The notes below the pieces were generated by a model. That model was not told the origin of the DNA. It was given only the letters and a program-made list of their open reading frames with translations, and did no database searches. DNA of 64,000 nt from positions 62,001 through 126,000 of the forward strand of contig JAHISP010000006.1 of NCBI GenBank assembly GCA_018818165.1. The letters run 5' to 3'. The number at the start of each line of letters is the position of its first letter. The stretch's first letter is position 1. Source of the DNA: Bacteroidota bacterium (GTDB lineage: Bacteria > Bacteroidota > Ignavibacteria > Ignavibacteriales > Melioribacteraceae). Positions 6,544 through 42,827 of the stretch are shown one piece after another. The translations under genes and the position numbers were made by a program.

Positions 6544-6552
6544 TTTTATTTT

Positions 6553-25561: not shown

Positions 25562-25587
25562 CCCAATCTCGAAAACTCGGAATTGGG
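25562..25587. terminator. Terminator between nfu and the KamA-family gene
   Basis: CCCAAT (25562-25567) pairs with ATTGGG (25582-25587); the interior adds partial pairing and a T-rich tract follows on the plus strand. It lies in the convergent spacer and may serve both genes. Confidence 0.7.
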
Positions 25588-25650
25588 CTTTTCTTTAACC
25601 ATTTTGATTTTTTTTATTTCTGAACTAGTTTAAATAATTTAAAGTCAATA

Positions 25651-27009: not shown

Positions 27010-27134
27010 AACATATAACCTCTTAGAATATTCTAATTTTAGTTATAGTAATTTATGTAATTTTATTGGTCTATTAGACCGAATATGATAAATTTGATTC
27101 TTGTAGATTTATAAACATTTTAGATATGAGAAAA

Positions 27135-27156
27135 AAGCGGTAAAATTTTACCGCTT
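27135..27156 (-). terminator. Terminator after the 54-residue protein gene
   Basis: A perfect 22-base palindrome (11-bp arms AAGCGGTAAAA) followed on the minus strand by a run of T. It overlaps the last two bases of the stop codon at 27155-27157. Confidence 0.85.
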
Positions 27157-27319
27157 ATTTTAATGTTGTAACTTGACTTGCATCTTCTAATTTTACAAAT
27201 TTTTCGTTGAATTTATAACTTCCTTTATCAGATTTTACAGTTTTAATAAACTTTACTGTTATTCCTGCTGCAGCACCTTTGCTTTTAGTTTTATCAACAA
27301 ATGTTTGTTTTTTAGCCAT
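27155..27319 (-). CDS. Small basic protein (54 residues), possibly DUF4295-like
   Basis: ATG at 27319 opens a 54-codon frame starting MAKKQTFVDKTKSKG and containing KFIKTVKSDKGSYKFNEKF, ending with TTLK. It has an excellent ribosome-binding site (AAGGAGAT, seven to eight bases upstream) and a terminator at its stop, so it is a real monocistronic gene. The Lys-rich, beta-hairpin-like KTVKSDKGSYKFNEK part resembles DUF4295, a small protein normally encoded beside ribosomal protein genes in Bacteroidota. That similarity is weak and from memory. No function can be assigned. Confidence 0.75.
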   Translation of the reverse strand: MAKKQTFVDKTKSKGAAAGITVKFIKTVKSDKGSYKFNEKFVKLEDASQVTTLK

Positions 27320-27480
27320 GAATTATCTCCTTATATATTTAGACCGTAAATATAATAAATTAATATCGATATTTAAAGAAAATGAATATCTAATAATTTC
27401 ACTTTTATAAAAATATTTATTTAGAGCATTGTGCATATTATTAGAAGTAATTCAATGCGGTTAATTTAGTTTTATAATTT

Positions 27481-27515
27481 CTCTCGCAAAATATCACTTG
27501 TATATCTTGCGAGAG
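27481..27515 (-). terminator. Terminator after the C45-type hydrolase
   Basis: CTCTCGCAA (27481-27489) pairs with TTGCGAGAG (27507-27515), 50 bases beyond the hydrolase stop, closing the long minus-strand operon. The T-run is weak. Confidence 0.65.
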
Positions 27516-27565
27516 TAGGGAGGCAACTTATATAACTAAATATATCCCATAATTATATTCCATAA

Positions 27566-28804
27566 TTATATTCCAAATTCTTTCTGATAAACCGAATTGA
27601 TATATTCGTCGAGCCATTTATAATACTCTTCTGCTTCTTTTTGTTGAAAAGAATTTGTTCTCCAATTTTTTATTAGAGTTTGAGCTTTGTCCATAATCTC
27701 TTTTTCATAAGGAAATAATTTTTGAATTATTCCTGTTTCTTCTTTATTAAGTAAAGCAGATACATTTAAATAATCTAAACCATGACCATACTCAACTGGA
27801 AAACATTTCTCTTTAAGCTGAAGAGATTTTTTATTGATTGGTGCTGTTACGCCTTTACTCCCAATAGTAACCATTGGTAAATTTTCACCAGCAGCTACCC
27901 AAACTGGCGTAACAAGTGTTGTTACAGGAAATCCCAAAACTGTCCACAAAGTAGTTAATGCAGGGTCTTCTCCAGGTTCAACACCCTGAATAATCATAGA
28001 AGATACTGTAGAATACCTAACAATAAAATCTTGAAATGCTATAAACTTTTTATTTGTGGTATCCTTAGGTAAATCCATTTTATACACATCAACACCAGTT
28101 AAAGAGTGAAGCATACTTCTATCCACGGTTTTCAATAAAAAAGAAAGGCAAATATGTTTATCTTTAGTAAAATGTTCGCTAAATAATTCTTTTGCAGTTT
28201 CATAACGGATGTAACCTTGTCCCTTTAAGTCCTTGCCACTTACAGAGTAATTAGAGCGTATTAGGTAACCATCAGGAGCTATTAGCGTATCATTAACATC
28301 AAACTTTTTATAAGAATCAATATCAACTTCATAATAAGCAGCACCTCCATTAGCATCAATAACACCATAATTTGATGCAACAGCCCATACACCCACAAGT
28401 TCATCCAATAATGCTTCAAAGTCTTCAAGAGTAGCACATTCGGCAAGTGCTCTCTTCATAACAGCGCCATCTTGTTGACGTGGAATATTATTGGTATTTG
28501 TTGTATCAACATTGTAGGAAGCAGTATTCATGATACTGAAACCCGTAGTATTGCTACCCATCCAAACTGATTTTGCGAGTGTATCTCTTACATTAACATC
28601 GGCAACAAAATCATATTTTAATCCTTTAAAAAACATAAGTTTATTTTCATAACCGCTTGAATCACGATGTTTCCACAATAAAGGCCTACCGTTAGGTGAA
28701 GCCTTCACTGATACTATTGCAGAGGTACAAGGGAAAAGCAATGATTGTGTAAAAAGCAGTAAAATCAAAATTGTCTTATAATTTTTTTTTATTTGATTTG
28801 TCAT
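27566..28804 (-). CDS. Secreted Ntn-type amide hydrolase (C45 / linear amide C-N hydrolase family)
   Basis: A 412-residue exported protein. The signal peptide ends in LLFPC, leaving Cys26 as the first residue of a CTSAIVSVKA segment, the N-terminal nucleophile arrangement of C45/acyl-transferase and choloylglycine-type hydrolases. The following RPLLWKHRDS, SNTTGFSIMN and VASNYGVIDANGGAAYYEVD blocks fit the fold. Such enzymes cut linear amide bonds, such as N-acyl amino acids or carcinine. ATG at 28804 is chosen over 28861 because AAGGAA precedes it and it gives a clean signal peptide. It is the last gene of the operon, 132 bases after susD. Confidence 0.8.
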   Translation of the reverse strand: MTNQIKKNYKTILILLLFTQSLLFPCTSAIVSVKASPNGRPLLWKHRDSSGYENKLMFFKGLKYDFVADVNVRDTLAKSVWMGSNTTGFSIMNTASYNVDTTNTNNIPRQQDGAVMKRALAECATLEDFEALLDELVGVWAVASNYGVIDANGGAAYYEVDIDSYKKFDVNDTLIAPDGYLIRSNYSVSGKDLKGQGYIRYETAKELFSEHFTKDKHICLSFLLKTVDRSMLHSLTGVDVYKMDLPKDTTNKKFIAFQDFIVRYSTVSSMIIQGVEPGEDPALTTLWTVLGFPVTTLVTPVWVAAGENLPMVTIGSKGVTAPINKKSLQLKEKCFPVEYGHGLDYLNVSALLNKEETGIIQKLFPYEKEIMDKAQTLIKNWRTNSFQQKEAEEYYKWLDEYINSVYQKEFGI

Positions 28805-28870
28805 AAATATTCCTTTTTTAAGCTTTAATTTGTAATGAATTGATTTGAACAACTGAAACAATTTAAATAT

Positions 28871-28903
28871 ACCGGCTCAATTAACATTTACTAATGAGCC
28901 GGT
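28871..28903. terminator. Hairpin between susD and the C45 hydrolase
   Basis: ACCGGCTCA (28871-28879) pairs with TGAGCCGGT (28895-28903). The T-rich side is on the plus strand; in the direction of the operon the tail is only ATATTTAAATT, so it may act as a partial terminator that lowers hydrolase expression relative to SusCD, or as an mRNA end stabiliser. Confidence 0.6.
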
Positions 28904-28936
28904 TTTAATTTACAATAACTTATTTTATATTAATGA

Positions 28937-30322
28937 CTAATAATTATCATTTGGGTCGTTATTATTCCTTAACGGTTGAAGAGAAGGAGCAAGAATAAAA
29001 GGATTAGAAGCTCTTTCATTGCTACTATACAATAATCTTCTAGGGATTTGACCACCGGAATAAGGAGTTACAAATGGACGATTAGTTCTTTTCCAATCGT
29101 TATATATTTCCACATTCATGAATAAAGCAATATACTTTTCTTGCATTATTGTATTTATTAAAGCATCACCGTTTAGTCCTACAGCAGTGCCAAGTGTATC
29201 GGCTGGAAGTCCCCATCGATTTTCTTCAGCACGTCTAGCCTCGTTTAACTTTGCTAATGCTGTAGACTCATCTCCTGTTTTAAATGCACACTCAGCCCAA
29301 ATTAAATTTGCTTCGGTAAAAGTCATAATTTCAAAAGCATTATCAGGATTTTTTGTTGTTTCACTTAGATTTGAAGCATCAGTTAAAGTCCCACCAGGTT
29401 CAACTCCAATAAATTGACCAGCAACAGAACCAACACCTTCTTGGAAATATTTTTCAAGACGTGGATCATTTTTTGAAATTAATAAATCAACTAAAAATTT
29501 ACCAGCACGAATATCAGAATTTCTTGTTCGCCAGTATTGATAGATAGTACTTGATTCATTTTCAACAGTTGTATGGTATGTTTTAAAGTTATTAGCATTT
29601 GATGATAATCCCTTTTGAATTGCTGAAAGTGCACGAGTATAATTTACTGGATCGACTTCAGCCCAATGTAGATAAAATCTTGCTTTTAAAGAATTAGCTG
29701 CCTCAATCCATTTTGAAGAATTTGCGCTATAAACAAAATCGTTAGGTGGTAAATATCCTCCACCCTCAGTTAGGTTTATAATTGCTTGATCAAGTAAAGC
29801 TTGTATTGCCGTATAAATGTCTTCTTGTTTATCGAGCTTTGGTGTTGATGTTTCGCTAACAGCCTCAGAGTAAGGTAAATCCCCCCATAAACTTGCTGAC
29901 ATACCAACAGAAAGTGCTTCCCAAACTTTAGCAATTCCTGAATAAGTTTTCCAACCCTTGGCTTCAGTCTCTTTTAGAATTTTGCGAATATCAACTAATC
30001 CACCCCCAGTATAAAGCCCATCCATATCAGTTCTCCATTCGCTTTCGGTAATATCATATATACCTAAACTAATTGCCTGACGATCAACCCCCGCTAATTG
30101 CTGTGTCCAAATTGCTGCAGTTCGAGATGTATGTCCTTCATATCTGGAAAACTGACGAACTTGAACTGCATTAAAAAGTAAGTCTGGGGATACTTTTGTA
30201 GCTCGGTTAGGATCATTTTGAATATCAGGATCATTTATAAAATCACTGCAACTTATAAACAATAAACTATAAAGTGTTGCCAATATTAAAATGATTTTTT
30301 TAGTATTTTTATTTTTTTTCAT
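28937..30322 (-). CDS. SusD/RagB-family nutrient-binding lipoprotein
   Basis: A 461-residue surface lipoprotein (Cys25 in LLFISC) of the SusD-like group 2, with the N-terminal DFINDPDIQNDPNRA block, the WTQQLAGVDRQ helix and ALSVGMSASLWGDLPYSEA. Such proteins form the lid on a SusC pore and capture the ligand. It lies nine bases after susC. Group-2 members often accompany peptide-type SusC channels rather than classic glycan loci; together with the peptidase and OPT genes upstream, a peptide or amide ligand is more likely than a glycan here. Confidence 0.93.
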   Translation of the reverse strand: MKKNKNTKKIILILATLYSLLFISCSDFINDPDIQNDPNRATKVSPDLLFNAVQVRQFSRYEGHTSRTAAIWTQQLAGVDRQAISLGIYDITESEWRTDMDGLYTGGGLVDIRKILKETEAKGWKTYSGIAKVWEALSVGMSASLWGDLPYSEAVSETSTPKLDKQEDIYTAIQALLDQAIINLTEGGGYLPPNDFVYSANSSKWIEAANSLKARFYLHWAEVDPVNYTRALSAIQKGLSSNANNFKTYHTTVENESSTIYQYWRTRNSDIRAGKFLVDLLISKNDPRLEKYFQEGVGSVAGQFIGVEPGGTLTDASNLSETTKNPDNAFEIMTFTEANLIWAECAFKTGDESTALAKLNEARRAEENRWGLPADTLGTAVGLNGDALINTIMQEKYIALFMNVEIYNDWKRTNRPFVTPYSGGQIPRRLLYSSNERASNPFILAPSLQPLRNNNDPNDNY

Positions 30323-30331
30323 TTGGAACTC

Positions 30332-33300
30332 CTAATAATTAAATCTTAGAGATAAAATGATAGATCGCGTCTGAGGATTATTGAAGTAATCAAATCCGCG
30401 TGCATTTACAGTACCTGCTAAATTGGTTTCTGGGTCAATACCTTTATAATTTGTCCAAGTATGAAGATTTCGAGCACTTAGACGTATATCAACAGAGCTA
30501 ACACTAATCCATGATTTTAATAATTCGTTTCTCAAAGTATATGCAATAGCGATTTCTCTGAGTTTAACATAACTACCGTCTTCAATAGCAAGACTAGCTG
30601 GCCCATTAAAACTACTGCCAATTCCTTGATAATATGCTTGATTAAGTTCAACTTCCTTACCAGCACCTGGACCCTTGCCATCAAACACAGTTACTTGACC
30701 TCTATTTTCAGTTTCCTTAGCCGTACCAAAATACATTAATGCGCCTAAGGTACCGTTAGAAACTTCCCCACCTTGAGAGAAATCAAATAAAGCAGAGATT
30801 TCAATATTATTAAAAAGAGTAAATGAGGTTCTAATGCTTCCAGTCCAATCTGGATTGGGATCACCAATTATTCTTAATTCTGGATCTTTAACTGGATATC
30901 CTGTGTCTGTGATATAAAGGTCACCAGTTTTCCAACCAGAGTATGCCTCATCAATATTTACACCATTATAAATAACACCGCGTCCAAATCTTAAATAATC
31001 GGTACCTCTTATAACGCCATAAGGCTGACCTTCAATAACCGATGCAGAACCTATTGCAGAACTACCGAGAGATATAAAATCAGCTCCAGGTAATTCTAAA
31101 ACTTTATTTTCATTGCTTGCATATAGTAAATTAATATCCCATTTAAAATTTGGAATGTTAATAGGCTGGAAACTAATGCCAGCTTCAATACCTTTGTTCT
31201 GAATAACACCTGCATTTTGAACTTGAGAAGTGCTACCAGTTGAAGGCGATAAAGGTAAAGAATAAATAGCATCTGTTGTTTTTGAATTATAATAAGTAAG
31301 TTCTATACCAACTCTTTCATCTAAAAATGCAAGATTAATTCCCATTTCAATTTCTTTCGATCTTTGGGGAAGTATGTTATCTTGCCCTTTTGCCAAACTT
31401 GTATAAAAACCACTATAGCCATAAGCATTTGAAGTTAAAGTAGCAGCCCATCCATCTCCAAAAGCAGTAGGGCTTGATGAGAATCCTGTTATTGTTGAAT
31501 AAACTTCAGGTTCCTGACCGGCTTCACCATAAGCTAAATGAAGTTTACCAAAGTTAAACCAATCAGAATGATTACTAAATATACTTAACTTGGAAAACTC
31601 CCATGCAGTACTGAATTTAGGATACCAATGGCGGCTCTTACTTTTTCCAAAAGTAGAAGAACCATCATTTCTCAAACCAGCAGTAAAATATAATTGATTA
31701 AATATATCAAATGTAAGTTGACCAAAATAAGATTCAGTTCTTCTTGTCGATTCATATTCATCGGGTACGCTAGCTGCTGTATTATCCAGTTGCTGAAAAT
31801 CATATACAGCCATATCATCTCCAGTAACACCGATGTAGCTATATTTTCTTTCATTCATATTTTGACCAAGCAACAAGGTTGCTTTAGCATCAGCAAAATC
31901 AAAATCCCTCTTCGCTGTAATCAATAAATTACCATCTGTTTCCTGGTTCTTCAATCTCTCTGCTATTATTTGTCCATTTGGACGGTAAGAACTGCTAGGT
32001 GGTATTATAGTAATTCTCTCATCATTGGAATAATCATGCCCTAATATATAACTAATATTTAACCAATTTAATGGGTCATAATCAACTTTTATGTTTCCAA
32101 ATGTTCTCGCAACTTTTGAATTATTAAGACCTTCATAAGCAATGAAAAATGGATTATCATATCCACGCGTTTTTTTTAATATAGTTGGATTTTGATATCT
32201 ATACGATCGATGTAATCCTGTAATTGGATCTATATAATTAGAATTATTAAAATCAGGAGGTGTTCTCCATGAGCCAGTTAATAAGCCACTAACAGATGAT
32301 CCCTTTCTAATTTTATCAGCATTAATATCAACAAATTGAATATTTCCTGTTACATTAATATCTTCATTAATCCTCTGTGATGCTTTAAGTCTAACAGAAT
32401 TTCTTAAATATTCTGAATTACCAATCAATGTACTTTGAGTACTTGTTTGACCTGCAGATAAAAAATAAGTAGTCCACTCATTTCCACCTGAGATACTTAG
32501 ATTATTATTTAGAGTATGCCCAGTTTGGAACATTTCTCTTTCATGGTTATAAGTTGGTATATCCTCTGTTAAAAGTGGTCCCCAAGCTCCAACTGCAGTA
32601 GGACTTGCAACCCCTTTATTGCCTTGTCCATAGATTTGTTGCAAAGGTTGAACATTTGTTACTTCATCAAAGGAATAAGAAACATCGTAAGTTACTTTTG
32701 GTTTTCCAGGCTTCCCACTTTTAGTTTTAATTAGAATAACACCATTTTGTGCACGAGAACCGTACATAGCAGCAGCAGCAGGACCTTTAAGAATATCAAT
32801 AGATTCTATGTCCTTAGGATTAATATCTGAAGCACGATTGGATTGAGTATAGCCACCAGTACTTGTACCAATTTCGGAATTATCAATTGGTGAACCGTCA
32901 ACAACTATTAGCGGTTGTGTTCCGCCTGTTATTGAATTTGAACCTCTAATTCTAATATAGGATGAAGCTCCAGGTTCACCGCTGGATGAAGTAATTTCAA
33001 CGTTTGCAACTTTACCCTGAAGAGCAGAAATTGCATCTATTGCTTTACTATTATCAATTGATTCAGCAGATACATTTCCTATTGTAACACCAAGCTTTTG
33101 TTTCTCCATTTCTACACCCATTCCAGTAACAACAACTGTGTTCATTAGCAGTATATCTTCTTTTAGAGAAATGTTTTGAACAACATCTTTATCTAATGTA
33201 ATTTCTAAAGTCACTTTTATATAGCCAACATAGCTAACTTCAAGTGTTGCTTTTTCGCCAATAAGATTTGATGGGATATCAATTGAATACATACCCGCAA

Positions 33301-33496
33301 CATCAGTAGAAGCGCCCAATAAAAATGGTTTTATTACCACGTTAGCACCAATTAAGGGCTCCTGTGTTTTTGCATCGGTAACTCTTCCCCTAATTGTATC
33401 TGCATACATTGCATTTATTGTAAATACTTGAAGCATAATGCCGAGAAATGAGTACAAAGCAATTTTTTTTACTACTTGCTCTAAATTATTTTTCAT
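30332..33496 (-). CDS. SusC/RagA TonB-linked outer-membrane transporter
   Basis: A 1054-residue protein with a signal peptide, an N-terminal carboxypeptidase-regulatory-like domain (RGRVTDAKTQEPLIGANVVI), a TonB-box-like and plug region (TVVVTGMGVEMEKQKLGVTI; DILKGPAAAAMYGSRAQNGVILIKT is its end) and a 22-strand barrel finishing in a C-terminal aromatic (SLRFNY). It imports a ligand bound by the SusD partner using TonB energy. No extracytoplasmic sigma or anti-sigma gene is adjacent; the XRE gene upstream in the operon is the only visible regulator. A plus-facing hairpin lies in its leader. Confidence 0.96.
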   Translation of the reverse strand: MKNNLEQVVKKIALYSFLGIMLQVFTINAMYADTIRGRVTDAKTQEPLIGANVVIKPFLLGASTDVAGMYSIDIPSNLIGEKATLEVSYVGYIKVTLEITLDKDVVQNISLKEDILLMNTVVVTGMGVEMEKQKLGVTIGNVSAESIDNSKAIDAISALQGKVANVEITSSSGEPGASSYIRIRGSNSITGGTQPLIVVDGSPIDNSEIGTSTGGYTQSNRASDINPKDIESIDILKGPAAAAMYGSRAQNGVILIKTKSGKPGKPKVTYDVSYSFDEVTNVQPLQQIYGQGNKGVASPTAVGAWGPLLTEDIPTYNHEREMFQTGHTLNNNLSISGGNEWTTYFLSAGQTSTQSTLIGNSEYLRNSVRLKASQRINEDINVTGNIQFVDINADKIRKGSSVSGLLTGSWRTPPDFNNSNYIDPITGLHRSYRYQNPTILKKTRGYDNPFFIAYEGLNNSKVARTFGNIKVDYDPLNWLNISYILGHDYSNDERITIIPPSSSYRPNGQIIAERLKNQETDGNLLITAKRDFDFADAKATLLLGQNMNERKYSYIGVTGDDMAVYDFQQLDNTAASVPDEYESTRRTESYFGQLTFDIFNQLYFTAGLRNDGSSTFGKSKSRHWYPKFSTAWEFSKLSIFSNHSDWFNFGKLHLAYGEAGQEPEVYSTITGFSSSPTAFGDGWAATLTSNAYGYSGFYTSLAKGQDNILPQRSKEIEMGINLAFLDERVGIELTYYNSKTTDAIYSLPLSPSTGSTSQVQNAGVIQNKGIEAGISFQPINIPNFKWDINLLYASNENKVLELPGADFISLGSSAIGSASVIEGQPYGVIRGTDYLRFGRGVIYNGVNIDEAYSGWKTGDLYITDTGYPVKDPELRIIGDPNPDWTGSIRTSFTLFNNIEISALFDFSQGGEVSNGTLGALMYFGTAKETENRGQVTVFDGKGPGAGKEVELNQAYYQGIGSSFNGPASLAIEDGSYVKLREIAIAYTLRNELLKSWISVSSVDIRLSARNLHTWTNYKGIDPETNLAGTVNARGFDYFNNPQTRSIILSLRFNY

Positions 33497-33550
33497 ATTT
33501 TTACCTAATGATGATTAAACATTGGTTAATTAAATTAGTGTTTAGATTCC

Positions 33551-33588
33551 AAGCCATAACGATCTAGCCATCGTTGTGGCTTTTTTAA
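33551..33588 (+). terminator. Plus-facing terminator-like hairpin in the susC leader
   Basis: A 13-bp stem (33551-33563 with 33570-33582) with loop CTAGCC, then TTTTTT on the plus strand. The one irregular pair is a G-U wobble in plus-strand RNA but an A-C mismatch in minus-strand RNA, so the structure is optimal for plus-strand transcripts, although both neighbouring genes are on the minus strand. Confidence 0.65.
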
Positions 33589-33638
33589 TAATAATTCACA
33601 TTATATTTTCTCCTATTTTTTTAATAATAATATTTGCA

Positions 33639-35099
33639 TTAGCATTTAACAGATTCAGTAATATCAATTATAAAATCTAACTTATTTAGAGGGTCAAAAT
33701 CACCCTTGTGTGGATCAAATTTATAATTCTTTATCCAATCCTTATGATTTTTTGTGATTTCATTAACTGCGTAAACAATGTAATCAACTTCTCCATCTGT
33801 CATAGTTGGATGAATAGAGATTCTTACCCAGCCAGGCTTTTCACTAAGATCGCCAATATCAATTTTTTCAGTAATTCGTTTGGATTCGTGATAGGTAATA
33901 TTTAACAAAACATGTCCATAAGTACCTGCACACGAACATCCACCACGAGTTTGAATTCCAAAACGATCATTTAGCAATCTTACAATCAAGTTATGATGTA
34001 TGTCTTTTATATAAAATGAAATATAGCCAAGTCTATTTCGTTGTGAAGCTTCCATCACAGTTAAACCATTTATCAACATGATTTTATTTAGTAATCTTTC
34101 TTTCAACTCATGTTCACGATGTAGGATTTTATCTACACTCATTTCGTCTTTCAACAAAATTGCTAATGCAGCTTTTATGCCCTGCAGAAAGCCAGGTGTA
34201 CCACCATCTTCCCTAAGTTCTACATCATTAAAGTAACTATGATTACCCCAAGGATTTGTCCATAAAACCGTTCCTCCACCAACTTGATCTGGAATTTTAT
34301 TTTGATAAAGTTGTGTGTTGAATAATATAACTCCTGATGAGCCTGGTCCACCTAAAAATTTATGTGGTGAGAAAAAGATTGCATCTAAATTTTGTTTTTC
34401 ATTTTTGGGATGCATGTCAACATTTACATATGAAGCCGATGCTGAGAAATCAACAAAACATAAACGATTATATTCGTGCATTATTTCTGCCATTTCATGA
34501 TATGGGGTAATAATTCCGGTTACGTTTGAACATGCCGTAAATGAACCAATAATCATCTTTCTATTTTCATTATCCTTTAAAATGTCGCGTAAATGTTCGA
34601 GATTAGGTAAACCATCTTCAGTTCTTTTCAGAATTTCAATATCAACCAAGCATTCTACCCATGATGTTTGATTGGAGTGATGTTCCATGTGAGTTAGTAT
34701 CACCAAAGGTTTGTTCTCAATGGTTACTTTATCTTTAAATTGCTCAGGAACTCGTAAGCCAAGTATACGCTGGAATTTATTGATTACAGCAGTCATTCCA
34801 AATCCGGCAAAAAGTAACAGGTCATCAGAATTTGCATTTACGTGATTTTTAATAATTACGGAAGCCTGGTGATAAGCATTTGTCATCACCGTTCCTGTTA
34901 ATGTAGTTTCGGTATGAGTATTTGCTACGTAGGGACCCAAAGTATTTGAGATATAGTCTTCTATTGGTTTATAAAGGCGTCCGCTTGCTGCCCAGTCTGC
35001 ATAGATTATTGGTTTTTTACCAGTTTCAAATTCATGCATAAAATTGTAACCAATAATATTATTTCTGAATTTTTCAAAATATTTTTCTAATGAATTCAT
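33639..35099 (-). CDS. Class V aminotransferase (cysteine desulfurase/epimerase-like)
   Basis: A 486-residue PLP enzyme with the class V fold: IIYADWAASGRLY start, the ligand block THMEHHSNQTSW, and the PLP lysine K247 in FFSPHKFLGGPG. Near the C-terminus RGGCSCAGTYGH places a Cys about where cysteine desulfurases carry the active thiol. The family spans cysteine desulfurases, selenocysteine lyases and isopenicillin N epimerase-like enzymes; which applies is not clear. It lies 13 bases after dsbD in an operon with peptidase, transporter and thiol-redox genes, so breakdown of a sulfur-containing amino acid released from an imported peptide is a reasonable inference. Confidence 0.85.
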   Translation of the reverse strand: MNSLEKYFEKFRNNIIGYNFMHEFETGKKPIIYADWAASGRLYKPIEDYISNTLGPYVANTHTETTLTGTVMTNAYHQASVIIKNHVNANSDDLLLFAGFGMTAVINKFQRILGLRVPEQFKDKVTIENKPLVILTHMEHHSNQTSWVECLVDIEILKRTEDGLPNLEHLRDILKDNENRKMIIGSFTACSNVTGIITPYHEMAEIMHEYNRLCFVDFSASASYVNVDMHPKNEKQNLDAIFFSPHKFLGGPGSSGVILFNTQLYQNKIPDQVGGGTVLWTNPWGNHSYFNDVELREDGGTPGFLQGIKAALAILLKDEMSVDKILHREHELKERLLNKIMLINGLTVMEASQRNRLGYISFYIKDIHHNLIVRLLNDRFGIQTRGGCSCAGTYGHVLLNITYHESKRITEKIDIGDLSEKPGWVRISIHPTMTDGEVDYIVYAVNEITKNHKDWIKNYKFDPHKGDFDPLNKLDFIIDITESVKC

Positions 35100-35112
35100 T
35101 GATTATAAAACC

Positions 35113-36960
35113 TTATTTGTTATTTAAAGCGTTTTGCATAATTGGTAATAATTCTTCTTCCTCTAAAAAACCTACGACCCGCAAATCTTGCAATTCTTCA
35201 CCATTTGGAGTTAAAAAAACAATTGTTGGTACCCCTTTTATCATAAACTTAGATTTTTGTTCTTTTGCTTGTGGAGTGTCTTCGGTGGTTAAATCAACTT
35301 TAAGCATTATAAAATTTTTAGACATCTTAATAACTTCGGGTTGAGAAAAAGTAAATGCGTCCATTTCTTTGCAAGGAACGCACCAGTCGGCAAAGAAATC
35401 TATTATCACAGGAACGTTTTGTTCTTTTGCCTCTTGGAGTTTTTGTTCGGAATACTCTGTCCAGATTATTTGTTCAGCAGAGGCAGAATTCCCAAATTCT
35501 GTCTTTGCAATTGCTAAAGACTTATTCACGTATGATTGTATAGCACTTGTTGAAATTACTATGGACAGAATAAAGAAAATAACTCCAATTATGTTACGCA
35601 TTATTGGAAATATTTTTCCATTTGATTTACTTGACTCAATCCATGCTAAATAAATACCAGCAAGTAAAAAGACTAATGCTAATGAGAAATTAAATATCAA
35701 CAGTGTAGGAAATAGGGGTTCCAAAAAGTAAATTGCCATTGCTATTAATACAAATCCGAATATAGAACGTACCCAAATCATCCATGTGCCAGAACGTGGC
35801 AATTTTTTAATACTGCCCGAAAATATTCCAATAAATATAAATGGAATTCCCATACCAATTGCTAGCACAAAAAATAACCAAAAACCTAACAGTACATCTC
35901 CTTTTTCACCAACATAAGTCAATAAAGCAAGTACAAATGGACCAATACAGGGAGCAGCAACAATTCCTACAGTTAGACCCATAAAAAATGTACCCCAAAA
36001 TCCCTTTTTAGTATCACCTGCAATTTGATTTAAAGCTGCTGGAAGACGAATTTCATATAAATCGAACATACTTAGTGCTAGAGCAACAAGTATAATAGCA
36101 ATAACTATAAGTACAATAGGATTTTGTAAAGCAGCACCAAACAAGCTTCCCGTAAAAGCGGCAATCATTCCTAAAATTGAATATGTAATTGCCATTCCCA
36201 ACACATACAGCAAAGAATGTATAATTAGATTACCTTTTTTACCTTGGGTTTGTCCTCCAAAATAACTAATAGTTATTGGAATTAAGGGGTACACACAGGG
36301 AGTTAAGTTTAACGCTAGTCCACTTAAAAACACCAAAATAAAAGTCCACAATAGTCCTTTTTCTTCTGCTGTCTTTGTAAGATCATATTTAGTTGATATA
36401 TCTGTTTCTTTTATAGCAACATCTGTAGATTGATGTTGTGCAAAAATATTTTGATTAATTGCAGTTGTTTTTTCGTCATTTTGGGCAATTAAAAATTCTT
36501 TTCTAAAAACTACCTTCTCTGGTTCCAAGCAATATTCATCATTACATGGTTGAAACTCTAGTTCTCCTTCTACTAATATTTTGTTTTCATTACTATTTGA
36601 ACCAAAAGTAATTGAAGAAAAGATATTTACCGTATCATCATAAACTGCTAAGGGTTTTTCGGAAAATGAAAATATTTTGTTTTTAGATTCAGGGTATTCA
36701 ATTTTTCCAAATGTAACCTCTTTCTGCGACAAAAAGTTTATAACTGTGGGAATTAAATATTCGTCATTCGGCTTATTTCCATTTATATGATAGGATGGAT
36801 TTATATACAAAACAACTGCAATAGGATAAGTTTCACCCGCCTTAAATTTATCCATTGAGCTAATAATTTCGACTGTGAGAACCTGATTGGAATCCTGACT
36901 GTTAATTGATATAGGTAAAACTGATAACAGAAAAATTAAAATTGCTATATAAGATTTCAT
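35113..36960 (-). CDS. dsbD: DsbD-family thiol:disulfide interchange protein
   Basis: A 615-residue inner-membrane protein that carries electrons from cytoplasmic thioredoxin to the periplasm. Order: signal peptide; DsbD N-terminal domain (about 25-165, with Cys in CNDEYC); eight-helix CcdA-like core (about 200-480) with LTPCVYPLIP and VAAPCIGPF Cys motifs; C-terminal thioredoxin domain with C527-V-P-C530 in FFADWCVPCKE. All redox cysteines are present. It lies 88 bases after the TlpA-like gene, a likely periplasmic partner. Confidence 0.95.
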   Translation of the reverse strand: MKSYIAILIFLLSVLPISINSQDSNQVLTVEIISSMDKFKAGETYPIAVVLYINPSYHINGNKPNDEYLIPTVINFLSQKEVTFGKIEYPESKNKIFSFSEKPLAVYDDTVNIFSSITFGSNSNENKILVEGELEFQPCNDEYCLEPEKVVFRKEFLIAQNDEKTTAINQNIFAQHQSTDVAIKETDISTKYDLTKTAEEKGLLWTFILVFLSGLALNLTPCVYPLIPITISYFGGQTQGKKGNLIIHSLLYVLGMAITYSILGMIAAFTGSLFGAALQNPIVLIVIAIILVALALSMFDLYEIRLPAALNQIAGDTKKGFWGTFFMGLTVGIVAAPCIGPFVLALLTYVGEKGDVLLGFWLFFVLAIGMGIPFIFIGIFSGSIKKLPRSGTWMIWVRSIFGFVLIAMAIYFLEPLFPTLLIFNFSLALVFLLAGIYLAWIESSKSNGKIFPIMRNIIGVIFFILSIVISTSAIQSYVNKSLAIAKTEFGNSASAEQIIWTEYSEQKLQEAKEQNVPVIIDFFADWCVPCKEMDAFTFSQPEVIKMSKNFIMLKVDLTTEDTPQAKEQKSKFMIKGVPTIVFLTPNGEELQDLRVVGFLEEEELLPIMQNALNNK

Positions 36961-37048
36961 AAAACCTCTTCTACGAATATTATTATAATATATTGTTAAT
37001 ATTTAAATTAATTGTTTTAGAACAACAGTTAATGCAGCTTAGATGTAA

Positions 37049-37573
37049 TCATTTCTTTTCAAGTTCATTATTTATTACTTTAAAAATATCTTCAACACTC
37101 GTTACTTTCGTTCCTTTTGATATCATTTTTATTTTACCATCCTTTCCAACAACAAAGGCTCGTGGAATGTATTTTTCCGCATACTTACCGTAAATTTCAC
37201 CTTTGGGATCTTCAGCAAAGGGCACATTAATATTTTTAGATTCCTTAAATTTTACTAACTCCTCAACGGAATGTTTACGTCCAAAAACTATTAGCTCAAA
37301 GTCTTTTCTATCTTTAAGTACTTTATAAATTTTCTCTTCAATTTGTGGTAGCTCAGCCAAACAGTGAGGACACCAAGTTGCAAAAAATGTTATTAAAACA
37401 ACTTTACCTTTATGTTCAGTTAATGAAAATTTTTCGCCTTTAATTGTATTGCCTACAAATTCAGGTGCGTTTTCGCCAACTTTAACTAGAGTTTTTTGTA
37501 TGTAATCATTTTCAGATTCCTCCTGAGCAAATAGAGCAACTGTTAATGAAATAAGAAAAATAAGTGTTTTCAG
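37049..37573 (-). CDS. TlpA/ResA-like exported thioredoxin, apparent CTG start
   Basis: A 174-residue exported thioredoxin-fold protein with C68-P-H-C71 in FFATWCPHC and a cis-Pro in KYIPRAFVVG. The reading frame upstream of the CxxC has no ATG, GTG or TTG before an in-frame stop. CTG at 37573 fits best: AAAGGA lies exactly seven bases upstream, and from it the product reads MKTLIFLISLTVALFAQ, a standard signal peptide. Starting later (TTG at 37360) would remove the signal and the active site. It sits two bases after the M20 peptidase stop and upstream of dsbD, its probable reductant. Confidence 0.85.
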   Translation of the reverse strand: MKTLIFLISLTVALFAQEESENDYIQKTLVKVGENAPEFVGNTIKGEKFSLTEHKGKVVLITFFATWCPHCLAELPQIEEKIYKVLKDRKDFELIVFGRKHSVEELVKFKESKNINVPFAEDPKGEIYGKYAEKYIPRAFVVGKDGKIKMISKGTKVTSVEDIFKVINNELEKK

Positions 37574-37575
37574 TT

Positions 37576-38718
37576 TTATGTCCTTTCAATTGTTGATAAA
37601 TAAGAATGCTTAACATTTTCTATAATGAAATCTTTTAATGAATTATACATTGGTACAATTGATGGAATGTGTAGTCTTTCTATTGGTGTATGATGATCTT
37701 CACCAACCATTTTTACTATCACAATTGAATTTCCTTTATTTGCAAAAAAACGTGCATCTGATGAACCATTTTCCGCGCGTATAACTATTGGTAGGTTAAA
37801 ATGCTGTTTCATTTTTTGCTGCAATTGAGTTATTTGTTCATTATTTGGTTCGAGAAAAACACGTTCACTATACATTAATTTCTCAATTATAGAATACTTT
37901 AAAACATTTTTAATTTTTAAATACAATGTTTCACTTGAAATATCTTCGGTGAAGTAGATATTAATTTTCATTTCAGCATAATGGGGTGCCAATAATGGTT
38001 CGTTTTCTACAGTAATATCATATGATGAATATGTGGTGTACCAATTGTCTAAATCCGTTGCTATATCGTGATTTTTAAATAATGACATTATTTGAAAATA
38101 ATCTTCCACAAGTAAATCAAAAGCATTTTGACCATTCCACGGATATGTATGTCTCGTAGATATACTTTCCACTTTTAATTTAAACTTTAATATCCCTTTT
38201 TCGGCATTGATAACTGCATAATTATAGCCGCCATCTCCATTAATTAAAATATCACATAGATAATTTTCCTCGGCTAAACGAGCAGCTCCATTACTTCCAC
38301 CAATTTCCTCATCAAATGTTAACATTAATCCAATTGAAATTTCTGGATATGATTTATGAATATCTTTAATTAAATGCATTGCTAATGAATCAAAACCTTT
38401 CATATCAACACTACCGCGTCCGTACAAATACTCATCTTTGTATTGTGGTTCAAATTGTGAATCTAAACCATCAACTACATCCAAATGACCTTGTAGCAAA
38501 AATGTGGGATTACTTGTTTCTGATGATAAAAATACTAATGCCGGATATCCTGAGTAATTGTACTTTTTTATTATAATGTTTGAATCTGCAAAAAAGTTTT
38601 CACAATACTGAATAGATTTCTCAAATTCATCAAATGCCCCATCTATAGTTCTGAGTTTGATTAAATCTTCAGTTGTCTTTAATATTTGATTAACCAAAAC
38701 ATTATTAGTTTGATTCAT
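37576..38718 (-). CDS. M20-family metallopeptidase/deacylase
   Basis: A 380-residue cytoplasmic di-zinc hydrolase of family M20 (ArgE/DapE/CPG2 group). Metal ligands are seen in FLLQGHLDVVDG, GRGSVDMKG, TFDEEIGGSNGA and, near the C-terminus, GEDHHTPIERLHI; the dimerisation domain lies between (about 180-290). Members remove acyl groups from amino acids or split dipeptides. It overlaps the XRE gene by 14 bases, so the two are translationally coupled. In this operon it is the likely cytoplasmic step after OPT-mediated uptake. Confidence 0.9.
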   Translation of the reverse strand: MNQTNNVLVNQILKTTEDLIKLRTIDGAFDEFEKSIQYCENFFADSNIIIKKYNYSGYPALVFLSSETSNPTFLLQGHLDVVDGLDSQFEPQYKDEYLYGRGSVDMKGFDSLAMHLIKDIHKSYPEISIGLMLTFDEEIGGSNGAARLAEENYLCDILINGDGGYNYAVINAEKGILKFKLKVESISTRHTYPWNGQNAFDLLVEDYFQIMSLFKNHDIATDLDNWYTTYSSYDITVENEPLLAPHYAEMKINIYFTEDISSETLYLKIKNVLKYSIIEKLMYSERVFLEPNNEQITQLQQKMKQHFNLPIVIRAENGSSDARFFANKGNSIVIVKMVGEDHHTPIERLHIPSIVPMYNSLKDFIIENVKHSYLSTIERT

Positions 38719-39550
38719 CCAATTGCCTCCTTAAAAATTCAATAGTAGATTCCCTATCTGAGTAACAAGCTAAATTATATTTATATTTCTCTACTTCTTT
38801 TAAGAAATTTTGCAAAATATTAGGGTGTGTTTGACGGAATAAGGCGCTACCAAAATCAAATACTAAAACTTCTCTATTAATAATTTCATAATTTACCGAG
38901 AAGAATTGGCGTGGTATGATGATTAGATCAAAACTTAATGGATTATTTTCAAGTTTATTTATTATTCCATTTACACATTCATGAATAAGTTCTTTGTCAA
39001 TTAGATTAAAAGGTTCTCGCTGCTTTATAAAATCAATAATCTCACTTTGAACAACTATTTCAATTCTACTTTTTTCTTTTTTGTCGATAATCTTCTGACG
39101 TTTAAGAAATGCTTGCATTGCAGGTTCAACCTGGTCAGCTGGCAAACGATAGATGTTTTTATAAATAATTCTCCTCATTTTTTCAGATTGATTAGCAGTA
39201 CTAAAATTTCGAGAAACAACAATCCTCTCCCCACCATTTTGCCCAAACCAAACATCTTCAAATTTTGCAAGTAAAAGGCTTTCATCAACTTTTTGCGAAT
39301 AAACTGGAAAGGTATTAACTTCTAAATCAAGCAGTGCATCCATACTAATCTGAAGTGTTGAACATATTCGTTCCAACTTGTCAACGCTTGGCTGTTGATG
39401 TCCGTTAATAATTGAATATAAAGTATTCAACTCTATTCCCGTTTCTTTAGATAGATTTTTAGCAGTAATTCCAAAAGTATTAATGTAATCTTTAATTTTT
39501 TTGCTAATCTTATTGTCCTTTTTTGAGTCTTTTGATGTATTCATATTCAC
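38705..39550 (-). CDS. XRE-family transcriptional regulator with a large unknown C-terminal domain
   Basis: A 281-residue protein. Residues about 16-72 form a Cro/CI-type helix-turn-helix (ITAKNLSKETGIELNTLYSI, then NGHQQPSVDKLERICSTL). The remaining 200 residues have no domain I recognise; they include an RRIIYKNIYRLPADQVEPAM helix and a FDLIIIPRQFFSVNYEIINREVLVFDFGS core that could bind a ligand. Overlaps of four and 14 bases with its neighbours make it an integral part of the operon and its probable autoregulator. Confidence 0.85.
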   Translation of the reverse strand: MNMNTSKDSKKDNKISKKIKDYINTFGITAKNLSKETGIELNTLYSIINGHQQPSVDKLERICSTLQISMDALLDLEVNTFPVYSQKVDESLLLAKFEDVWFGQNGGERIVVSRNFSTANQSEKMRRIIYKNIYRLPADQVEPAMQAFLKRQKIIDKKEKSRIEIVVQSEIIDFIKQREPFNLIDKELIHECVNGIINKLENNPLSFDLIIIPRQFFSVNYEIINREVLVFDFGSALFRQTHPNILQNFLKEVEKYKYNLACYSDRESTIEFLRRQLDESN

Positions 39551-40062
39551 ACTTCTTTTATTTTATTAATTTCTTCATTTGTCATTTTGAAAAAAACAAG
39601 ACTTTGGGTTAAACTTTGCTTTGCTTCTTCATAATAGCCATCGGTTGCTGAAGAATAACCGCGATATAGTAAACGTTCTGCACGGGCACATGGTGAAATT
39701 ATTGCTATATATTTTCCCATTCCCAATTGGTTTATTAAAGCAACTTTTAAATAATCAATCTGGTTATATAAATGTTCAATTTTGTAATTGTCTAATAGGC
39801 TATTCATCACATCTTCATTTTTAATAAATCCAGTTAGCTGATCAATTTGGTCATTTATTAGTATTTCAAATTCAATTAATGGATTTACATTATTACTTTT
39901 GGCTAAATATTTCTCCGAAGCATTTTTACGATTTAAGTATATTCCAATAGATATGATGATTAGGAATAATCCAAATTCAAGCCAAAGCGGAGGAATATGT
40001 GAGGCTGTTATTGCAGCTCCAATAGTTCCAATTATGATACAAAAAACTGAAAATATTTTCAT
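39547..40062 (-). CDS. Small membrane protein of unknown function in the OPT operon
   Basis: A 171-residue protein with two membrane helices (about 1-20 and 26-45) and a soluble helical C-terminal part of about 120 residues (IDQLTGFIKNEDVM, LLYRGYSSATDGYYEEAKQSL), the end of which resembles a tetratricopeptide-like helix pair. No family recognised. It begins directly after the OPT stop and overlaps the XRE gene by four bases, so a role linked to transporter assembly or signalling to the regulator is possible but unproven. Confidence 0.75.
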   Translation of the reverse strand: MKIFSVFCIIIGTIGAAITASHIPPLWLEFGLFLIIISIGIYLNRKNASEKYLAKSNNVNPLIEFEILINDQIDQLTGFIKNEDVMNSLLDNYKIEHLYNQIDYLKVALINQLGMGKYIAIISPCARAERLLYRGYSSATDGYYEEAKQSLTQSLVFFKMTNEEINKIKEV

Positions 40063-41799
40063 TTATTCTAAAACTCCGCTAACAGTTAAAAACGCGAACA
40101 TTATAATTAAAAGTGCTTCGCCTACTATTAATCCTGCTGCAAAAGGAACGCCCCATTTTTCTGACCAATCTTTACCTTTTTTCCAAACTACTATTAAGTT
40201 TAGAATACTTCCTAAACCGTATGGAAGAATATGCTTTATTGAAAGATACATTGCTATTCCCATTATAACGCCCAAACCTGGAATACCACTAAAAGATAAT
40301 AATGCGCCTATAATTCCTCCAGCAAGAAATTTATCACCTGGTACATTTCCTTGAATAATGCTATCTATAGTAGCTCCAAGTGCTACTGCTTGTGGTGCTT
40401 GAACATCAGTTCCAGGACCAAAGCCAGGTAGTTTAGCTCCAGTTACTGCATCAATTGCTCCACTATTCCAAATTAACATCATTACTGCAATTGAAACAAT
40501 AGGACCTATTCCAGCTACAATTAATTGTACAGTTTGTTGTTTTGCTGGAATGCTACCAACTAAATAACCTGTTTTCAAATCCTGCATCATATCCGCAGAT
40601 TCTGCAATTGCAACAGCCACAGCAGCTCCTATTAAAACGGCAGTAACTATTTGATCAGAAGGTAAAAACATCATTAAAATAGCCACAGCTAATAGAGACA
40701 TTCCGCTTATTGGTGTCCAATCAGTCATACCAGTTGCCTGCGAAATAATAATTCCAGCAAACATTAACCAAATTGTTCCAACCAAGGATACAATAAGTGC
40801 TGTAACAAATGAAACCGATGAAGTAAACCAGGCTGCAAAGAAGAACAGAATAAATGCAGCAATTGTTACTATATATAAAGTCTTTATTGGAAGTTCATCG
40901 GAACTAACATTATTCAATGATTTTATATTGAAACTTTTAATGGTAGCTTTTAATGCAGGAAGAGTAAAAATTATGCTCATAAGTGAACCACCAATTAGCA
41001 TACCAATTCCAATTGGGCGAGTCATTTGAGCGTGTATAAATGTCGTCATTCCAGCTCCAGTTATATTCTCAGGAATCCATCCTAAGGAAATAACAAAGGG
41101 CGTTATGAACCAATATGCCAAAATTCCGCCTGCAAGTACAAATAATCCATTTCTGCCTGAGATAAAACCAATTCCAAGGCTTAATAAAGATATAGCCCAA
41201 ACATTATTAATATAAGCGGGAAAATTGAGTAGTGCACCAAAATCTATAGAATCAGAAAGAATTTCAGGCAATCCCATTTTAGGGAATTGAGTGAAAAAAA
41301 AGACAGACGCCGAAATCAAAGCTCCATAAATCAGCAACCTTGATTTTTTTATTCCCTCTGCTGGAGATCTTAATATACTGGCAACTGCTGTTCCTGAAGG
41401 AAATCGCAATCGTTCTATATCTAACATTTGTTTTCTTATTGGAATGATAAAACCAACACCTAAAATGGCTCCGGCAACTGTAGCTGCAACAATCCACCAA
41501 ATATTAAAATCAACACCGCGTATTAAAAGAATTGGTAATGTAAATATTACTCCAGAAGTTGCTGTATTAATTCCAGATGCGATTGTTTGCACAATATTGT
41601 TTTCAACAATAGTTCCCCTTTTAAATATTGTACGCATTATTCCCCAACCTAAAACTGCCGCAACAGGTGAGCCATTTGTTGAAAAACCTAATAGAAGAGC
41701 AGCGTAGGAAAAACTTGCTGTCATTAGCAAACCAATAGTAAAACCAACTAAGATTGCTTGCGGTGTTATTTCAGGATATTTAGTTCTATCGTTTTTCAT
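40063..41799 (-). CDS. OPT-family oligopeptide (or metal-chelate) transporter
   Basis: A 578-residue integral membrane protein with about 14 helices, starting ITPQAILVGFTIGLLMTASFSYAALLLGFSTNGSPVAAVL, split as in prokaryotic OPT proteins, with the conserved AESADMMQDLKTGYLVGSIPAKQQ loop. OPT carriers import small peptides, glutathione-like compounds or metal-siderophores with protons. It is the first gene of the ten-gene minus-strand run and transcribes away from aroK across a 467-bp spacer. Confidence 0.92.
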   Translation of the reverse strand: MKNDRTKYPEITPQAILVGFTIGLLMTASFSYAALLLGFSTNGSPVAAVLGWGIMRTIFKRGTIVENNIVQTIASGINTATSGVIFTLPILLIRGVDFNIWWIVAATVAGAILGVGFIIPIRKQMLDIERLRFPSGTAVASILRSPAEGIKKSRLLIYGALISASVFFFTQFPKMGLPEILSDSIDFGALLNFPAYINNVWAISLLSLGIGFISGRNGLFVLAGGILAYWFITPFVISLGWIPENITGAGMTTFIHAQMTRPIGIGMLIGGSLMSIIFTLPALKATIKSFNIKSLNNVSSDELPIKTLYIVTIAAFILFFFAAWFTSSVSFVTALIVSLVGTIWLMFAGIIISQATGMTDWTPISGMSLLAVAILMMFLPSDQIVTAVLIGAAVAVAIAESADMMQDLKTGYLVGSIPAKQQTVQLIVAGIGPIVSIAVMMLIWNSGAIDAVTGAKLPGFGPGTDVQAPQAVALGATIDSIIQGNVPGDKFLAGGIIGALLSFSGIPGLGVIMGIAMYLSIKHILPYGLGSILNLIVVWKKGKDWSEKWGVPFAAGLIVGEALLIIMFAFLTVSGVLE

Positions 41800-42266
41800 A
41801 ATGACTATCTGATAAATAGTAATAAAAATGGATTTCCTTTATTAAATTAGAAATCAGCATTGTGTTTCTTAATAGCATAACCAAATATATTTTTTGTCTC
41901 ACAATTATCAATTATTTAGAATTCTAAAAATATCTTATTCTATTTAAATTATTTTGTGTTCACACCACAATATAATATTATTACCAAGTTTTGTCAAGTT
42001 TTCTGATATTATTTTAAAAATAATTTTCTTATCTCTATAACAACGTCATAGATAAGTCTCTATCACTATTTTAGTATAAATGATATATTATTATTTTTCA
42101 AAAAATGGATGCATATATGGGGAGAAATAGGGATTTGCTTAAAAATTTGAAGGGAAAAGATAAATACCTACTTTAGGTAAAGGTCAATAGCTGAATAATT
42201 TTACAATAGTTCTTCTTTTATAATTTTATAAATATGGTTATCATTGCACATATTTATTAGGATAAA
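41800..42266. other. 467-bp divergent control region between the OPT operon and aroK
   Basis: No gene seen. It must hold promoters for both directions. Notable are a 17-base dyad TTGTG-n7-CACAA at 41954-41970 abutting a TATAAT at 41971-41976, and a TACCTA-CTT-TAGGTA hairpin at 42165-42179. The dyad is a candidate operator for the XRE protein of the operon; this is only positional inference. Confidence 0.5.
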
Positions 42267-42827
42267 ATGGAAACTGCAATAAAGCGAATTTACTTAACTG
42301 GTTTTATGACTAGTGGAAAAAGTACAATTGGACCAATTTTGGCAAATGTTATAGGATGGGAATTTTCTGATCTTGATAGAGAAGTGGAAGAACAGGAAGG
42401 CAAAACGGTTGTTGAAATTTTTGAAACTAATGGCGAAGAGTATTTTAGAGATATTGAGAATAGACTTTTATTGAATTTATCAAAAAAAACGAATATTATT
42501 CTTTCACTTGGTGGCGGAACAATGGCTTTTGATAGAAATTTGAGCATTTTGAAAAATACTGGCATGACTGTTTACTTAAAATCATCACCCGAAATGATTT
42601 ATCAAAGAATTAAAAACAAAATTGACCGTCCAATTTTTAGAGATTTGGTTTTATCGGGAACTGCAAAGCCAAAAGATTTTATTGAACGAATTGAAAATTT
42701 ATTAAAAAAACGTGAACCTTATTATCTCGAATCTGATATTTGTATTGATACTGATTTATCAAATATTGGCATAACTGTTGACAAATTAGCAAAAACTTTA
42801 ATTAAGGCAATAAATGGAAACAATTAA
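42267..42827 (+). CDS. aroK: Shikimate kinase
   Basis: AroK phosphorylates shikimate at O3 in the aromatic amino acid pathway. The 186-residue product has the P-loop GFMTSGKST (residues 12-20), the shikimate-binding DLDREVEEQEG, the FRDIE arginine motif and ILSLGGGTM, in family order, and an RPIF lid segment. It overlaps aroB by 14 bases. Confidence 0.96.
   Translation: METAIKRIYLTGFMTSGKSTIGPILANVIGWEFSDLDREVEEQEGKTVVEIFETNGEEYFRDIENRLLLNLSKKTNIILSLGGGTMAFDRNLSILKNTGMTVYLKSSPEMIYQRIKNKIDRPIFRDLVLSGTAKPKDFIERIENLLKKREPYYLESDICIDTDLSNIGITVDKLAKTLIKAINGNN

Follow-up and report, generated by a model that had tools for sequence, protein, structure and literature searches.

A ten-gene locus of a Melioribacteraceae bacterium as a candidate XRE-controlled system for scavenging small peptides, with signs of lateral acquisition

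What brings an outer-membrane capture pair, an inner-membrane transporter, two amide hydrolases, thiol-redox proteins, a class V pyridoxal-phosphate (PLP) enzyme and a regulator together in a single locus? The question is raised by a 64-kb stretch of the genome of a Bacteroidota bacterium of the Melioribacteraceae (GenBank assembly GCA_018818165.1, 4.9 Mb; contig JAHISP010000006.1). We call this stretch the window (G000:C52:62001-126000, G000 being its genome); in its list of open reading frames (ORFs), ten consecutive ones, spanning 27566-41799, all lie on the minus strand. We propose, with a probability of roughly 0.6, that the locus is a laterally acquired, XRE-repressed operon for the scavenging of small peptides, furnished with interchangeable outer-membrane modules. 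Its features, including the genes of the three modules A, B and C into which we divide it, are as follows:

40063-41799, minus strand: OPT, an OPT-family inner-membrane transporter of 578 amino acids, first gene (module A; PF03169, E 9e-58)
39547-40062, minus strand: sm171, a small helical membrane protein of 171 amino acids accompanying OPT, second gene (module A)
38705-39550, minus strand: XRE, a regulator with HTH_3 and a C-terminal domain like that of phospholipase D (PLD), residues ~77-281, from Pfam and predicted structure (module A)
37576-38718, minus strand: M20, a cytosolic metallopeptidase (module A; PF01546; no signal peptide by eye)
37049-37579, minus strand: TlpA, a TlpA/ResA-like thiol-disulfide protein with the motif WCPHC and a non-standard start, ATA or CTG (module B; AhpC/TSA-ResA-like match)
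35113-36960, minus strand: DsbD, a DsbD-type membrane disulfide reductase (module B; DsbD_TM, E 4e-55; NF001419 above cut-off)
33639-35099, minus strand: PLP5, a SufS/CsdA-like class V PLP enzyme, second copy in the genome (module B; Aminotran_5; motifs SPHKF with the Lys and GCSCAG with the Cys)
30332-33496, minus strand: SusC, a SusC/RagA-type TonB-linked receptor (module C; TIGR04056 above cut-off)
28937-30322, minus strand: SusD, a SusD-like lipoprotein (module C; SusD-like_2, PF12771, E 6e-53)
27566-28861, minus strand: C45, a C45/Ntn-like exported hydrolase (module C; weak NF040521 match; motif CTSAI; Cys after an apparent signal peptide)
41969-41997, minus strand: promoter-like TTGACA-17-TATATT, overlapped by the predicted operator and kept in the genome G026
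41954-41970, minus strand: predicted XRE operator TTGTGGTGTGAACACAA, with 1 mismatch to TTRTGGTNNNACCAYAA, the best match in the window
27403-42195, no strand: block absent between kamA and aroK in the genome G002, by nucleotide alignment

On the transporter side the genes abut or overlap (OPT-sm171 0, sm171-XRE overlapping by 4 and XRE-M20 by 14 bases), while the distal genes are spaced by 88 (TlpA-DsbD), 13 (DsbD-PLP5), 142 (PLP5-SusC), 9 (SusC-SusD) and 75 bp (SusD-C45), giving the unit the look of an operon. Layout and spacing agree with a sequence-only reading that preceded our analysis, and the internal regulator it had placed among the ten genes is borne out by the HTH_3 match. Its combination of outer-membrane capture, inner-membrane import and hydrolysis in one set is supported by the family matches. 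Most of its family names were recovered with Pfam or NCBIfam; C45 gave just a weak match, and the starts of TlpA and C45 had to be corrected. The locus region matched no Rfam family.

In the nearest relative, G026, which belongs to another genus, we observed the order OPT-sm171-XRE-M20-GGT-TonB receptor-TlpA-DsbD-PLP5-C45, where GGT is a gamma-glutamyltransferase. Eight of the ten window genes thus recur with their order kept and identities of 62.5 to 86%; M20 and TlpA are separated by GGT and another TonB receptor, and SusCD is missing. Upstream of OPT the two genomes share a block consisting of TTGACA-17-TATATT and then TTGTGGTGT (blastn E 5e-12). As both this gene order and the promoter block are kept in another genus, the neighbourhood goes beyond chance.

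We searched for XRE in 97 genomes, the window's own included, and found matches in 15, of which seven matched through the helix-turn-helix (HTH) alone and were excluded from the ortholog count; the other eight, again counting the window's own, are full-length at 50% identity or above. Conserved synteny, the check proposed with the sequence-only reading, holds for OPT-sm171-XRE-M20: OPT and sm171 adjoin XRE in all seven relatives (sm171 being partial in one), and M20 follows in six, the contig of the seventh ending inside XRE. It fails for the remainder, in that TlpA, DsbD, PLP5 and C45 join this core in one of the seven, G026, and SusD lies beside XRE in none of the seven relatives' stretches. 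Little could be tested in G056 and G030, where the contig stops shortly past XRE or M20. SusC and SusD of the window form a SusCD pair by adjacency, their 9-bp gap and the TIGR04056 and PF12771 matches; SusD relatives (E 1e-60) occur in four of the 97 genomes, own included. In G038, SusCD-C45 is 76 to 80% identical to that of the window and lies apart from the XRE core, preceded by genes for an ECF sigma factor and a FecR protein. Given that module B and C45 accompany the core in a single relative, that no SusD adjoins XRE and that SusCD-C45 stand together in G038, we regard the locus as a composite of modules and not as a single ancestral locus. SusCD-C45 was rejected as a fixed pair, as it holds in G038 while the SusD of G016 has no C45 after it (the contig of G005 ends at SusD). 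The G038 SusC is longer at its N-terminus, where STN is matched below threshold, and the window SusC lacks this stretch; a loss of STN from the window SusC was rejected as a reading, as the relatives in G005 and G016 are short too.

PLP5-like genes (E 1e-40) occur in 84 of the 97 genomes and GGT (E 1e-30) in 81, with two PLP5 copies in three genomes, G000, G026 and G045. In G045 the extra copy shares an operon with one of that genome's two GGT genes, a dicarboxylate symporter, a DUF819 permease and a TonB receptor whose identity to the one in the G026 operon is 62%. In a tree of 30 PLP5 proteins, whose bootstrap had not settled, the copies of the window and G026 form a long branch by themselves (support 100/100) and that of G045 falls in the ordinary clade, so that PLP5 and GGT were joined twice, G045 being a second recruitment. 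A cluster in G001 holds GGT, a C45-like protein and a partial GGT. Two side observations concern these genes: the operon-type PLP5 of G000 and G026 ends in a C-terminal Cys (VKC, FKC), unlike six other aligned copies, and the adjacency of the DUF819 permease to the dicarboxylate symporter in G045 (L107:2490-3668) offers a lead to the substrate of DUF819.

Beyond these relatives, a scan of named genomes yielded 17 XRE loci, including those of KSB1, Caldithrix, Marinimicrobia, Adhaeretor mobilis (Planctomycetes) and SAR324; as they overlap the 97-genome set (L028, for example, is G026), the two counts are not independent. M20 follows XRE in 14 of the 17, and OPT lies within the locus in 13, the others being KSB1, two Marinimicrobia and SAR324 (the contig of which ends inside XRE). 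The fullest arrangement, in G001 and G047, runs TonB receptor, ~1060-aa protein, PorV-like protein, OPT, sm171, XRE, M20, FGE-domain lipoprotein (lip650), C10 protease and a ~765-aa protein tagged for the type IX secretion system (T9SS). The gene for lip650 is present in 13 of the 17 loci, among them those of Adhaeretor (order XRE-M20-OPT-small protein-lip650), KSB1, Caldithrix and Marinimicrobia; by search, six of nine genomes matched it, with no match in G000, G026 or G038. The protein (L022:11346-13301 and relatives) is lipoprotein-like, and the highest-scoring models for its C-terminal FGE-sulfatase domain are those of EgtB/SenA, whose cut-offs it misses by far. A glutamine synthetase-like gene lies within the KSB1 (L039:16627-18063, Pfam-checked) and Caldithrix (L040:16266-17687) clusters. 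Within the phylum, XRE was found in two genomes of a 395-genome sample, those of the window and G026, and is thus rare; no match was found among 72,556 plasmid records.

These clusters bear on the likeliest alternative, namely that the locus serves general feeding on mixed oligopeptides from protein breakdown, with the thiol enzymes and PLP5 as incidental housekeeping passengers. A C10 protease gene occurs in nine of the 17 loci, several others ending at contig ends too early to judge; in the one scanned it is T9SS-tagged and accompanied by a PorV-like protein, and in SAR324 XRE is paired with a family 5 peptide-binding ATP-binding cassette (ABC) system. That passengers should accompany the core as TlpA-DsbD-PLP5-C45 in two genera and at distinct chromosomal locations, and that second-copy PLP5 should twice be joined to second-copy GGT, is harder to square with it, and we give this alternative a substantial but minority weight. 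The SAR324 locus itself (L044:1079-9986) has XRE divergent from the ABC operon, which also includes DUF1028, a glutaminase and M20, with a predicted operator between them.

As to how the window acquired its block, kamA is directly followed by aroK in G002, a close relative (97% identity of its ProS to the window protein). Window positions 19949-27402 and 42196-43980 align to 447-7816 and 7808-9592 of G002 L189, the intervening 14.8 kb is unmatched, and XRE has no match in G002. Between G000 and G026, identities are 86% for OPT, XRE and PLP5, 78% for C45, 75% for DsbD, 74% for M20, 63% for sm171 and 62.5% for TlpA, as against 70% for ProS, 69% for the ordinary PLP5, 68% for an NfuA-like, 61% for an RsmI-like and 43% for an alpha/beta-hydrolase protein outside the operon; six of the eight shared operon genes (74-86%) therefore exceed all five of the others. 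The genes flanking the G026 operon include neither kamA nor aroK. The absence in G002, together with the greater likeness of most operon genes, suggests that the block probably moved as a unit, and gain in the window lineage appears likelier than loss in G002, which one genome pair cannot settle. A target-site duplication at its ends was rejected and no transposon is claimed, as the 9-bp overlap of the two alignments is AT-rich and imperfect; a foreign base composition was likewise rejected.

A chance neighbourhood, in which A, B and C are unrelated, co-directional and each served by its own promoter, would fit the occurrence of B and C apart from A elsewhere, the private sigma/FecR pair of SusCD-C45 in G038 and a 13-bp hairpin in the PLP5-SusC gap (33551-33582). 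The overlapping or near-zero gaps inside A, the company of A, B and C45 in G026 and the disappearance of the whole block in G002 render it improbable. The hairpin lacks a T run on the operon strand and could be a processing site or a partial boundary; folding of the gap is barely better than that of shuffles (z -1.3).

The regulator, XRE, has an unusual architecture. A model built from 17 sequences (mean pLDDT 86.2, pTM 0.69) predicts a Cro/C1 HTH and a C-terminal alpha/beta domain. Structure prediction of this domain had been suggested with the sequence-only reading; in VIA, residues 77-274 of the model align with vaccinia F13 (9fhk; Z 10.6, 150 aligned, 3.2 A) and residues 72-281 with SauUSI (7clg; Z 10.2, 144 aligned, 3.1 A), both of the PLD fold. 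Most other VIA rows align just the HTH, and a fold missing from the VIA list was not counted as evidence. Active PLD nucleases and lipases carry the motif HxKx4D, which is missing from all 17 aligned sequences; the XRE C-terminus is likely a non-catalytic, ligand-sensing PLD-like domain. The top Foldseek matches of the model are to TrmBL2 (E 1e-4 but TM 0.33). TrmB effector domains are PLD-like, and XRE would resemble TrmB-type regulators in the fusion of such a domain to a DNA-binding one; unlike them, it carries a Cro/C1-type HTH in place of the winged helix, with HTH_3 in 17 of 17 members and the TrmB winged helix (PF01978) in one, at E 0.042. DUF5753, which this domain resembles, was dropped as a name for it, since DUF5753 is not among the best 25 of 36 Pfam matches at E up to 10.

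XRE probably represses the operon at TTRTGGTNNNACCAYAA (41954-41970), a site overlapping the promoter. The pattern was read by eye from the window, G026 and the regions before XRE in Adhaeretor and SAR324. One of 2000 shuffles of the 400-nt region was as good as the window's operon site, which had itself helped to derive the pattern, and in shuffled windows 640 kb contained 12 matches at up to 2 mismatches. Of four genomes that took no part in the derivation, G001 and G047 have a 1-mismatch site 9 nt before the TonB-receptor gene heading the cluster and a 2-mismatch site 15 nt before the head receptor, respectively. In the other two, G030 and G045, the whole genome has a single site at up to 1 mismatch, placed 9 and 18 nt, respectively, ahead of a TonB receptor that is 71% and 69% identical to the head receptor of G047, on contigs other than that of XRE. 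Shuffles as good numbered 0 (G001), 5 (G047), 2 (G030) and 0 (G045), each of 2000, the G030 and G045 regions having been chosen via the genome scan, so that their counts are not blind. Sites at the XRE locus or cluster make up 2 of 3 in the genome of Adhaeretor, 1 of 3 in SAR324, 1 of 8 in G001 and 1 of 5 in G000, where two of the five were looked at, the operon site and one inside an ORF. At the six Ignavibacteria sites and in Adhaeretor, by eye, the site starts 27 to 30 bases past the start of a -35 of the TTGAC- or TTTG-type, a position that suggests repression; the SAR324 site lacks this spacing. The promoter itself scores 11/12 and shares the top place among the region's 86 promoter-like sites; shuffles give no fewer such sites. 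A wide XRE regulon was rejected, as pattern counts overall are not above the reversed control. In Adhaeretor, a second operator-like site (L043:7038) lies 2.9 kb from the first, and L043:7846-9823 encodes a divergent N-formylglutamate amidohydrolase-like protein with a dockerin match.

The transporter belongs to the OPT family by PF03169 (196.8 bits over residues 10-571, curated cut-off 25.8) and falls short of the OPT equivalog TIGR00733 (152.5 bits, cut-off 182.5); its identity to the genome's other two OPTs is 24% and 29%. Metal-chelate uptake, with a YSL-side OPT importing a metal-peptide or metallophore, SusCD capturing it and M20/C45 dismantling the ligand, would agree with the TonB receptors and with 7wsr (E 1e-6), a plant iron-phytosiderophore transporter and the only solved structure that OPT matches at E up to 1. 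Such uptake is very unlikely, given that no metallophore-synthesis or metal-regulator family is found among the ten proteins in Pfam or NCBIfam and that the regulator accompanies M20 peptidases in the groups seen. The partner sm171 has no Pfam, NCBIfam or PHROGs match at E 0.001; its AlphaFold2 model (pLDDT 86) predicts helices alone, with hydrophobic stretches near residues 1-19 and 25-43, and its best PDB match is at E 0.65. M20 retains the metal-site motifs, its nearest solved chain is 2rb7 (E 2e-35), and it is nearest to DapE-type models among the best 25 of 38 NCBIfam matches.

From these families we can sketch how the system might work. SusD/SusC would bring the substrate across the outer membrane, the C45/Ntn hydrolase would trim an amide (acyl or gamma-glutamyl) bond in the periplasm, and DsbD with the TlpA-like protein would keep thiols reduced; OPT with sm171 would import the product for cytosolic cleavage by M20, and the cysteine set free might then yield its sulfur, or H2S plus pyruvate, through the class V PLP enzyme. 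Bound at TTRTGGTNNNACCAYAA over the -10 region, XRE would keep the operon repressed, and its own gene with it; repression would end when the PLD-like domain of XRE binds a small molecule, probably the peptide taken up or a product of it. PLP5 is similar to solved SufS chains and has the Lys and Cys motifs, and scores 135 bits against TIGR01979 (cysteine desulfurase SufS; cut-off 475.1). C45 reaches 26.8 bits against NF040521 (cut-off 85) and has no solved relative at E 1; judging from its signal peptide, it probably starts at an internal ATG (MTNQIKK...) and not at the listed TTG. Ahead of the CxxC, the TlpA-like gene offers no ATG, GTG or TTG, and a signal peptide can be read from a non-standard codon only; translation may begin at a rare start codon or by coupled re-initiation, or else a mutation may have removed the start. 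At 37571-37579 (minus strand), the ATA at 37579 overlaps the M20 stop (ATAA), with CTG next; the TTG of the ORF caller at 37360 would truncate the domain. As for the cargo, thiol or gamma-glutamyl peptides are tentatively the likeliest, in view of the family functions and GGT links. The sulfur-containing or acylated peptide suggested from the sequence alone remains an inference, which gains from the presence of GGT inside the G026 operon and inside the PLP5 operon of G045.

Several observations weigh against this picture of a mobile, XRE-repressed thiol-peptide operon. With up to 1 mismatch, the operator pattern equals or trails its reversed control in seven of ten genomes (5 as against 9 in G000); G002, lacking an XRE match, holds four such sites, the site of G026 itself has 2 mismatches, and the single site of G029 is on a contig other than that of its cluster and not before a receptor. 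No site was found in the 300 nt upstream of the Marinimicrobia receptor or the KSB1 XRE, or before PorV in Caldithrix, where PorV is not the cluster head. TlpA and sm171 are no more alike between G000 and G026 than other genes, and the base composition of the block (29-35% GC) does not set it apart from its flanks. GGT and PLP5 are near-universal in the relatives, the window operon is without GGT, the one copy found in the genome lying elsewhere, and the commoner cluster, with C10 protease and FGE-domain lipoprotein, points to general protein-derived peptides and not to thiols. Finally, the TlpA-like gene may have no working start, and the hairpin stands between PLP5 and SusC.

Among known systems, Francisella GGT/DptA and Campylobacter GGT/CptA (PMC7340319, PMC8015009) provide a bacterial precedent for GGT action followed by Cys-Gly uptake, and oral bacteria have a GGT/cysteinylglycinase/cystalysin route of glutathione use (PMC4808752). 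DptA is a POT-family transporter, and the family of CptA is disputed, being assigned to OPT in PMC7340319 and to POT in PMC4178425. Like these routes, the locus would combine periplasmic amide cleavage, inner-membrane import, a cytosolic peptidase and a PLP C-S enzyme, and G026 has the GGT itself; unlike them, it unites within a single operon an XRE-PLD regulator, DsbD/TlpA and SusCD, and in the window C45 takes the place of GGT. RagAB/SusCD peptide-uptake loci similarly have a SusC-SusD pair adjoining a degrading enzyme, and the window operon differs in its XRE-PLD regulator, OPT and M20. Yeast Opt1 imports glutathione mixed disulfides according to PMC12406275, and a title in the reference list of PMC7340319 names the Dug2-Dug3 complex a glutamine amidotransferase. 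The window locus parallels the yeast system in having an OPT importer, an M20 peptidase and an Ntn-type hydrolase, and departs from it in that C45 is not a glutamine amidotransferase and looks exported, while M20 is nearest to DapE-type models and 2rb7; no Dug3-type glutamine amidotransferase was matched among the ten proteins at E 0.001 in Pfam or NCBIfam (for M20, among the best 25 of 38 NCBIfam matches). The yeast system, OPT1/HGT1 with DUG1-DUG2-DUG3, joins an OPT importer to an M20 peptidase and an Ntn-type hydrolase. We found no paper with the exact gene set of the window in searches of the open-licence PubMed Central literature, which agrees with the sequence-only reading and is weak evidence of absence.

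A doubtful extension is that an XRE-PLD repressor family of Ignavibacteria, KSB1, Caldithrix, Marinimicrobia, Planctomycetes and SAR324 governs a portable peptide-scavenging core around which the receptor and the first amide-cleaving enzyme are swapped as cassettes, one Melioribacteraceae branch having refitted it (GGT or C45 with DsbD, TlpA and a dedicated PLP enzyme) as a mobile thiol/gamma-glutamyl route, a bacterial counterpart of yeast OPT-DUG. The best reading of the locus is XRE-controlled capture, import and cleavage of peptides with interchangeable outer-membrane modules. To our knowledge, the substrates of bacterial OPT transporters are poorly known; here, an OPT comes together with its own peptidase, an architecturally unusual regulator and a specific DNA site, which would make both ligand and substrate directly testable. 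The route of GGT products into the cytoplasm is described as unclear in most bacteria in PMC7340319. Moreover, the exchange of receptor modules around an import-and-cleave core cautions against predicting a substrate from SusCD neighbours alone.

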